A stretch of 42,033 nucleotides of DNA, from IMG/VR virus record IMGVR_UViG_3300023083_000106, positions 1 to 42,033 of that record; one strand, written 5' to 3'. The notes under the pieces were generated by a model. The model was not told where the DNA came from. It saw only the letters and a list, made by a program, of their open reading frames with translations, and made no database searches. The translations under genes were made by a program, and so were the position numbers. Origin of the DNA: a virus. This document shows positions 22,751-24,373 of the stretch, one piece after another (the stretch's first letter is position 1; each line of letters begins with the position of its first letter).

Positions 22751-22879
22751 TCACTCGACGGTTACGTTAGGCCAGATGCCCTGGGCGAATGCCAGTGCTC
22801 CAGCGTGGTCGTGGTCTTCTTGCATGATCATGGGGAATGGTGGATAGCCTGGCGCTGTGACTGACCAGGACTTCTTCAC
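22751..22879 (-). CDS. Small protein (42 residues) with GYPPF...IWP motif
   Basis: From a GTG at 22879 the frame encodes VKKSWSVTAPGYPPFPMIMQ, then EDHDHAGALAFAQGIWPNVTVE, ending 4 bases before the next ATG. The amino-acid pattern (aromatic strand, GYPPF turn, helix ALAFAQGIW) looks genuinely coding and resembles small cytoplasmic phage proteins. No good ribosome site precedes the GTG. However, a 6-codon reading frame (MYDMRS) with GAGG upstream ends in a GTGA overlap with it, so coupled translation is possible. The alternative start is the ATG at 22831. Confidence 0.5.
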   Translation of the reverse strand: MKKSWSVTAPGYPPFPMIMQEDHDHAGALAFAQGIWPNVTVE

Positions 22880-23015
22880 GAGCGCATGTCGTACATTGAT
22901 GTGTGCCTCACTGGTTCCCTGCCGACTGATTACCCTGCGCGTCAGGTCGTTCGTTCTTCAGGTAGGCGTGCACCGACGCCTCGTTTTAGTTCTGCCTTGC
23001 GGCCTTCCAGTAAGC

Positions 23016-23113
23016 GGGGACCGGGAGGATTCGAACCTCCGACCCGCATCGCGTCTACGGCACACAGGATCTGTACCGCAGGGAGCTGCTCTAACCAACT
23101 GAGCTACGGTCCC
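23016..23113 (-). tRNA. tRNA-like gene with abnormal anticodon arm
   Basis: 98 bases. Acceptor GGGACCG/CGGTCCC with C as discriminator, TA linker, D arm GCTC-AGTTGGTTA-GAGC, and T arm GGAGG-TTCGAAT-CCTCC are all perfect. The 47 bases between D and T arms do not give a standard anticodon arm. Instead CTGCGGTACA pairs with TGTGCCGTAG (10 bp with two or so wobbles) around the loop GATCCTG. The loop lacks the expected U33, so no anticodon can be named. No CCA is encoded. It lies directly between Rz1 and the 42-residue gene in the late operon. Either a degenerate phage tRNA or a tRNA-like RNA. Confidence 0.75.
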
Positions 23114-23119
23114 ATGAAT

Positions 23120-23395
23120 CTATTTGCTCTTGCTGCGTACGATCTGGGCGTCCACCTGATCGGCGCATGTGTCCAGCAGGTTCACTGCCCGATCCTTCAA
23201 CGCCCATAGGTCACCATTGAGTGCGAGGTCGTCCTCGCTCTCAGTGATCCGCTCACACGGGATCAGCTCAGGGGGTTCGAGCCTTACTGCTGTTGTCTTT
23301 GTTACCACTGGCTGCGGGCTTCCCGCGCAGGCCGTCAGGCAAAGGCTGAGCAGCCCAATCACGAACAGGCTTGCTGGTGCGCTTGAGTTGATCAA
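23120..23395 (-). CDS. Rz1-like outer-membrane spanin lipoprotein
   Basis: 91 residues. A hydrophobic signal segment (SLFVIGLLSLCLTAC) ends in the lipobox LTAC with Ala+2 next, then a Pro-containing stretch. This marks an outer-membrane lipoprotein (o-spanin). The gene starts inside the Rz-like gene in another frame and extends 148 bases beyond it, a common o-spanin layout. The start is TTG at 23395, with AAGGAAAGA upstream. A GTG at 23362 would remove most of the signal peptide. It pairs with the i-spanin to fuse inner and outer membranes at lysis. Confidence 0.85.
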   Translation of the reverse strand: MINSSAPASLFVIGLLSLCLTACAGSPQPVVTKTTAVRLEPPELIPCERITESEDDLALNGDLWALKDRAVNLLDTCADQVDAQIVRSKSK

Positions 23396-24035: not shown

Positions 24036-24373
24036 TCGGAATAGGTGCAGATGGCCGGTGCTGGTCTCCGGCTTGATTCGTCTACGCGTTGGCTTGTCGG
24101 TCCACCATCGAATCGGATCCCGCTCTCTGCGCATCAGCCTGCGCATTCATCTGCATAAGATGCGTGTCTTCCCACGCTGCCCGCCAGAGCTACCCCGTCG
24201 ATGGAGCAAAGGTACGATGGCTGCCGGTGTTTTCTCGTAACACCGCACTACCGGCTAATCGGTGTCCAGGCCCACCCGAAGGTCCACCCTGGCTATGGTC
24301 AACAACGCATACATGTAAGTTGGCCGCAGCGGCACTCCCAGCTCGGGGCAATGGGTGTGGTGCAGCCAAAAAC
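24036..24373 (-). other. Late-control gap, probable late promoter and Q-utilisation region
   Basis: About 340 bases without a convincing gene between terminators. Short leftward frames (24 and 19 codons) lack ribosome sites. One hairpin, CGGTGTT with AACACCG, lies around 24224-24245. In lambda this interval carries pR' and the Q-binding site, and makes a short leader RNA ended by the terminator before the holin. A weak -35-like TTGACC is present near 24300 on the minus strand, but I could not place a convincing -10, so the late promoter is not identified. Confidence 0.45.

Follow-up and report, generated by a model that had tools for sequence, protein, structure and literature searches.

A putative two-domain RNA joining a tRNA-like element to a structured RNA domain in the late operon of a phage related to Pseudomonas phages

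The late operon of the viral DNA analysed here (IMG/VR record IMGVR_UViG_3300023083_000106; the whole stretch of 42,033 nucleotides is called the window) carries an insert in which a tRNA-like domain whose anticodon arm is replaced by a long arm is followed almost immediately by a structured RNA domain, designated E (Table 1). Comparison with other phages showed structural conservation of both domains, which share one orientation in the late operon, and a fixed spacing of their junction in several phages, and the two-domain architecture is well supported on these comparisons. It is tentatively proposed, with confidence somewhat short of even, that the insert encodes one late-expressed non-coding RNA of ~208 nt (23113→22906), that its tRNA-like half would be non-decoding and that the whole RNA would act by tRNA mimicry.

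Table 1. Positions of the features of the insert and of its neighbourhood in the window
Feature	Position	Strand	Basis
Proteo-phage-1 RNA, between Q and holin	24219..24298	(-)	RF03044, 85.7 bits
Rz1-like outer-membrane spanin, ending with its stop codon just 5' of the tRNA-like domain	23120..23395	(-)	PHROG 456, E 4e-14
Insert relative to sister phage L006, at the junction of Rz1 stop and next-gene start; contains the tRNA-like domain and E	22880..23123	(-)	L006 alignment
tRNA-like domain, 98 nt, extended arm at the anticodon position, no usable anticodon	23016..23113	(-)	Rfam tRNA, fold, ARAGORN negative, homologue L140:3213-3309
Possible 3-bp helix closing the long arm (23082-23084 with 23043-23045)	23043..23084	(-)	U-G in window, C-G in L140; two sequences, weak
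10-bp arm CUGCGGUACA/UGUGCCGUAG with 7-nt loop GAUCCUG (loop 23065-23071)	23055..23081	(-)	Sequence; 10/10 pairs kept in L140
T arm GGAGG-UUCGAAU-CCUCC, 5 bp, complete	23024..23040	(-)	Rfam, fold; 4/5 pairs kept in L140
Structured RNA domain E, 108 nt, with 2 nt between it and the 3' end of the tRNA-like domain	22906..23013	(-)	BLAST identity, covariation
Core motif M of E, UAAAACGAGGCG-N8-CGCCUA	22963..22988	(-)	20/48 columns invariant in 14 phage/plasmid sequences
42-aa gene downstream of the insert	22751..22879	(-)	PHROG 8532, E 4.5e-7

Structure and conservation of the tRNA-like domain

The tRNA-like domain lies on the coding strand of the late genes (23113→23016) and matched the Rfam tRNA family RF00005 with 48.2 bits (E 2e-7 over the whole window; cut-off 29 bits); ARAGORN, run on the window with introns off, called no tRNA. 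The minus strand folds into a cloverleaf with an arm of 9-10 bp capped by the loop GAUCCUG (z = -3.05, and -3.34 in a further fold run), and the plus strand gave z = -1.1. A complete 7-bp acceptor stem (GGGACCG/CGGUCCC) and a complete 4-bp D-arm (GCUC-AGUUGGUUA-GAGC) were observed together with U8, A9, A26 and G18 G19, the 3' end having C as discriminator with CCA not encoded. Between the D and T arms, a 5-nt linker (GCUCC) is followed by the arm CUGCGGUACA-GAUCCUG-UGUGCCGUAG, whose ten pairs include G-U pairs, and by a 14-nt linker (ACGCGAUGCGGGUC). The loop has A at the position of U33 and offers no readable anticodon, and so the element displays the cloverleaf of a functional tRNA with its acceptor, D and T arms, but not the 5-bp anticodon stem and 7-nt loop with U33 and a readable anticodon. 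The preliminary description, which had placed here a tRNA-like gene of 98 bases with full acceptor, D and T arms, a 10-bp arm, a 7-base loop lacking U33 and no fitting anticodon, was exact in its coordinates and is borne out in these points, the strand being minus.

A homologue was detected in L140, a contig from another metagenome obtained by a scan of viral contigs for D and T arms of standard form with too long a distance between them. Its tRNA-like element begins a few nt after the Rz1 stop, has the same inner length as that of the window (50 nt) and carries a homologous arm, CUGCUGCACA-GAUCCAG-UGUGCAGCAG; it could also be drawn with an 8+4 acceptor/T layout. The Rz proteins of the two phages are only 62% identical, and the neighbouring Rz and holin genes diverge by 39-50% at third codon positions, compared with ~19% for the tRNA-like (18 substitutions in 97 positions, besides one T-stem base deleted in L140); the similarity ends at the acceptor 3' end. 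All of the ungapped pairs are kept (25/25), against a mean of 18.3 when the same number of changes was placed at random in a mutation-placement test (P ~1e-4), and the long arm alone keeps 10/10 pairs through 4 substitutions (P ~0.008). Pairs changed on both sides were observed in the acceptor (A-U to G-C) and in the arm (G-C to U-A), the changes of the long arm comprising one double change and two one-sided changes between G-U and G-C/C-G. The long-arm family of the window consists of these two sequences, with which a generic shuffle control is powerless; the case for conservation is made by the mutation-placement test and the conservation pattern, and by these the tRNA-like is not decaying and its structure is under conservation.

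The arm had been called divergent at the outset: it does differ from a normal anticodon arm, but it is not divergent within its own family, as 10/10 pairs and 6/7 loop bases are common to the window and L140. The suggestion of selection for a purpose other than decoding gains support, since an independent phage keeps the arm, the loop and the length with compensatory changes, and random decay of all arms, for which a related phage was to be checked, did not occur in L140. Other members were sought with exact patterns from two stretches of the window element in viral contigs (no match); with a loop-specific scan of viral contigs (L140 as the sole match); with the D-arm plus AGATCC in GTDB (ten unrelated matches, none in Pseudomonas); and with BLAST, in which the tRNA-like was compared with phages and the insert with plasmids (partial similarity only, mostly in the D-arm or T-arm). 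The R1 model, searched over 50 related phage records, gave no second member beyond L140, MT121966 being rejected for its length, which is that of a normal tRNA. No target complementary to the loop was common to the window and L140.

Three other readings are poorly compatible with these observations. A decaying tRNA gene (pseudogene) or an integration scar would explain the absent anticodon, the missing CCA and the T-stem base lost in L140, but this is very unlikely and has been largely refuted, as all alignable pairs are conserved (P ~1e-4) with compensatory changes, and the inner length is equal in the window and L140 on divergent backbones. More doubtful still is a DNA-level element, such as a recombination or att site whose inverted repeat merely resembles an RNA arm; the site is a hotspot and relatives carry other inverted repeats there, but the substitutions follow RNA pairing, G-U included, in acceptor and arm alike, and the whole cloverleaf is conserved. 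Least probable is an intron-containing or unusual decoding tRNA. ARAGORN with introns allowed does read the window element as Arg(gcg) with a 24-nt intron, and a related tRNA of phage Psa21 has a 7-nt loop readable as ACC, but L140 is called Ser(gct) with a 9-nt intron at another place, and only 3/5 anticodon-stem pairs can form in the window. The spliced-tRNA reading was rejected because the intron calls are inconsistent between the window and L140, and a normal anticodon stem was rejected with any variable-loop length; software folding thus gave no normal anticodon arm, save the forced intron call that the homologue contradicts.

Viral tRNAs with abnormal anticodon arms seem to be common. 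In another family of phage tRNA-likes, comprising 17 distinct sequences (L099:11333-11436, L107:8642-8740, L246:11395-11493, L261:582-680 and others), the acceptor, D and T arms are normal and the anticodon loop is replaced by a conserved ~33-nt domain, UCAnGGYnAAGGRCC-AAn-GC; several members stand in phage tRNA arrays, and their Rfam match is to tRNA only. Part of the ~33-nt domain is shared by a related set (L239, L244, L248, L253 and L257). Recurrent tRNA-likes in which a canonical 5-bp anticodon stem is extended by a long hairpin or a 30-nt loop were also observed, in L051:1997-2096, L085:5742-5841, L087:12394-12492, L236:5937-6034, L251, L259 and L264.

Domain E and its junction with tRNA-like RNAs

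Domain E, 2 nt past the acceptor end, was missed in the preliminary description, whose reading of the insert was incomplete in this respect, and its presence changes the interpretation. E resembles non-coding DNA of the Pseudomonas jumbo phages Psa21 and D6, of TPWB-08 and of three Vibrio phages (82-89% over 70-90 nt; BLAST, phage records), and the near relatives of the window lack the 130 nt following the tRNA-like. The domain is composed of an outer stem P1, hairpins P2 and P3 and a long helix P5 holding P4, followed by GGUAAUCAG; P3 is set in the almost invariant context UAAAACGAGGCG...CGCCUA, the core motif M. In an alignment of six sequences, the Vibrio members of which are near-duplicates, the consensus has 27 pairs with double-sided changes in 16/27. 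The well-aligned helices P3-P5 pair in 98% of cells, with 9/17 pairs changed on both sides; their covariation score was reached by 0/500 shuffles and no slid register comes near it. P1 and P2 were partly misaligned by the program, so that the counts are probably lower bounds. E gave no match to Rfam 15, M likewise had no Rfam match, and by its covariation E is an RNA family absent from that release.

Motif M was also found in longer gaps with no abutting tRNA, in P22-like phages (IME10, CUS-3 and Huey), Acinetobacter SR, Bacillus plasmids and others. In the form AGUAAAACGAGGCG...CGCCUA it lies in long non-coding gaps of L276:1440-1640 (phage IME10), L277, L279, L281, L284 and L286, the gap being located between Q and holin in the P22-like phages. 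Most of the length of the 201-nt IME10 piece is present in 118/5,426 complete E. coli genomes, with no annotated feature under the matches listed, and it is possible that the M-bearing gap of IME10 and others encodes a large unannotated RNA.

The acceptor end is separated from E by 2 nt in the window and by 0-1 nt in Psa21, D6 and TPWB-08, and from the M core by 30-34 nt in nine loci, Erwinia and Aeromonas phages included; the composite count includes relatives of one genus (L282, L287 and L288), and the tRNA halves of L280, L287 and L288 are poorly resolved (5/7 acceptor pairs). A shorter M domain stands behind a tRNA-like at the same spacing in Erwinia phage SNUABM_27 and Aeromonas phage phiA050, and less clearly in SNUABM_29, Aioli and EaPF9. 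The anticodon-position arms next to E differ in build, with 10 bp in the window, 8 bp in Psa21, 6+3 bp in D6 and a long branched arm in TPWB-08, whose tRNA-like has a length of 118 nt; the E-abutting tRNA of D6 is the sole 'tRNA-OTHER' annotation in a cluster of seven. The composite, defined in this analysis as a tRNA-like with an extended or abnormal anticodon arm abutting E within 3 nt, was accordingly found in the window, Psa21, D6 and TPWB-08, and not in L140 or the Vibrio phages.

The two domains are separable, since L140 has the tRNA-like without E and no tRNA was detected beside E in the Vibrio phages, and some adjacency is to be expected because E sits inside tRNA clusters in three phages (Psa21, D6 and TPWB-08). 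ARAGORN assigned anticodons to the E-abutting tRNAs of Psa21, Gly(acc), and D6, Asp(gtc), and the Psa21 loop, AUACCAC, has U33; the term non-decoding is therefore firm for the form of the window and L140 only, and the common feature elsewhere is an extended or abnormal anticodon arm. Searches with the E and M models beside other abnormal phage tRNAs yielded no convincing copy, and the whole 208-nt fold has a z of only -1.4.

Genome context and insertion site

The window is related to Pseudomonas phages, and its order of transcription is antiterminator Q, Proteo-phage-1 RNA, holin, Rz, Rz1, tRNA-like, the 42-aa gene, a P-loop ATPase-like gene, a 72-aa gene, HNH endonuclease and terminase; the gene order and PHROG matches agree with the location between Rz1 and a small gene of the late operon that had been described. 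The closest relative, L006, aligns on both sides of the insert, with 92% (through Rz/Rz1) and 96%, and lacks 22880-23123, its Rz1 stop overlapping the start of the 42-aa gene. Because these genes overlap in L006, the alignment indicates that ~244 bp is gained or lost as cargo exactly at the junction of Rz1 and the next gene.

The site after Rz1 is an insertion hotspot in the set of 77 informative Rz1 tails that was compared (window and related phages); 2 of them have the tRNA-like (window and L140) and 1 (L213) has a normal tRNA-Gly(UCC) at the corresponding position. By ARAGORN and Rfam, the tRNA-like is the sole tRNA-type gene of the window. Hotspot cargo is bordered by long inverted repeats, GTCGCGACAC...GTGTCGCGAC or CGCGCCACAAATTC...GTGGCGCG, which are candidate terminators or recombination sites and were observed just after the Rz1 stop in L010, L021, L156, L166, L167, L213, L218 and L140; a GC-rich stretch, TAGGTCGTGGACCTACC...GGGGGACCCTGGGGGTATTCGGGG, is conserved after the Rz1 stop in L158, L161, L182, L212, L223 and L230 (Pseudomonas-type phages). 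The Proteo-phage-1 RNA was also detected in many relatives, and directly upstream of it in related phages (L187:1542-1820 and L219) there are clusters formed by a tRNA-Ser(tga) in L187 and by more tRNA-type T-loops in both.

Comparison with known RNAs and possible function

The element shares with phage-encoded tRNAs (RF00005) the acceptor, D and T arms, U8/A9, G18 G19 and the T-loop UUCGAAU, and the normal tRNA-Gly(UCC) of L213 occupies the same Rz1-adjacent site, whereas the replacement of the 5-bp anticodon arm by a 10-bp one with GAUCCUG, the lack of U33, the length of 98 nt, the C discriminator with no CCA and the abutting E set it apart. Like tmRNA, which some phages encode, it is a tRNA-like domain joined to structured RNA, but its tRNA-like part forms a full cloverleaf and lies at the 5' end; the tmRNA model had no match in the window while the same searches did find tmRNAs elsewhere, and no tag reading frame was identified in the window RNA. 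Non-canonical tRNAs such as tRNA-Sec and allo-tRNA keep a readable anticodon loop and are changed in the acceptor, T or variable arms. Non-standard arm lengths are a likeness to this group (PMC7609411), but in the window the anticodon arm itself is replaced, the acceptor and T arms have 7+5 pairs and no anticodon is readable. Phage tRNAs that evade anticodon nucleases are likewise tRNA-derived and changed at the anticodon arm, but they are decoding tRNAs with loop mutations and have neither a new long arm nor a second RNA domain (PMC10264068). The kind nearest to the composite is that of GOLLD and ROOL, structured phage ncRNAs near tRNA islands; the E domains of Psa21, D6 and TPWB-08 have such a location, and the window has the tRNA-like alone as a tRNA-type gene. 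GOLLD can hold a tRNA in a linker, is expressed more strongly in lysis and has been connected with ribosomes by pull-downs (PMC12286853). The window RNA differs in having ~208 nt against many hundreds and a tRNA-like 5' of the structured domain rather than inside it, and the GOLLD and ROOL covariance models gave no match up to an E-value of 10 at 22850-23130 of the window or at M loci in longer gaps.

In the proposed mechanism, the insert would be transcribed from the Q-dependent late promoter. The acceptor and T arm are the features read by RNase P, and because both are intact a cut by the host enzyme at the acceptor stem could make the 5' end, as in established tRNA biology. The 5' domain would then present a tRNA-like fold with intact acceptor stem and elbow and the long arm replacing the anticodon arm, and the 3' domain would be a compact multi-helix RNA whose stable closing stem P1, starting 2 nt past the acceptor stem, may hinder 3' maturation, CCA addition and aminoacylation. 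The resulting molecule would be late and stable, combining a tRNA elbow with a rod where the anticodon would otherwise be. It would most likely act in trans, the elbow and acceptor docking by tRNA mimicry on a host tRNA-handling machine, of which the ribosome, RNase P and a tRNA-targeting defence enzyme are candidates, and E together with the long arm may provide specificity.

The main rival holds that the tRNA-like and E are two independent phage RNA genes, brought together as small RNA cassettes collected at the same sites, and it is a possible though unlikely account. The tRNA-like alone in L140, E alone in Vibrio phages, M without a tRNA in P22-like, Acinetobacter and Bacillus elements and the Rz1 3' end as a general insertion hotspot all fit it, but junctions of 0-2 nt, the distance of 30-34 nt to the M core, which hardly varies across several phage lineages, and an abnormal tRNA at every well-resolved junction point the other way. 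A role as a punctuation mark, processed by RNase P so that the lysis part of the late mRNA is severed from the packaging part, agrees with the intact acceptor and T arm, with the position between Rz1 and the next gene and with the real tRNA-Gly(UCC) that L213 has there; the sister phage L006, however, manages with no element and with Rz1 stop and next start overlapping, and punctuation leaves the conserved long arm, the loop and E unexplained, which makes it quite improbable. Slightly better, though still improbable, is a counter-defence tRNA mimic soaking up or resisting anticodon nucleases or other tRNA-targeting defences: the decoding loop is absent with the elbow intact, the element is late-operon cargo at a variable site, and phage tRNAs do counter such defences as resistant or replacement tRNAs (PMC10264068; PMC11555353). 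Those evading tRNA nucleases nevertheless still decode (PMC10264068; PMC11555353), the phage tRNA-Tyr of the published retron case had to be decoding-competent, rescue being abolished by an anticodon change (PMC11555353), and no link from the element to any defence gene was found.

Beyond the window, it is suggested more tentatively than the two-domain RNA itself that phages widely carry an undescribed class of RNA, in which a tRNA-like that does not decode, fused to E/M and expressed late, engages a tRNA-handling host machine, M also anchoring longer RNAs in other phages and prophages. Full-text searches of open-licence papers gave no description of the tRNA-like/E composite, which within that scope is weak evidence of novelty. 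E directly adjoins tRNA-like RNAs in phages that differ in host and lifestyle. Should the joined RNA prove real, the giant phage RNAs GOLLD and ROOL would have in it a small counterpart in kind, which at ~200 nt would be far easier to make, mutate and solve than these; phage tRNA cargo, for which codon supply or nuclease evasion is the usual explanation, would then have a role independent of decoding.
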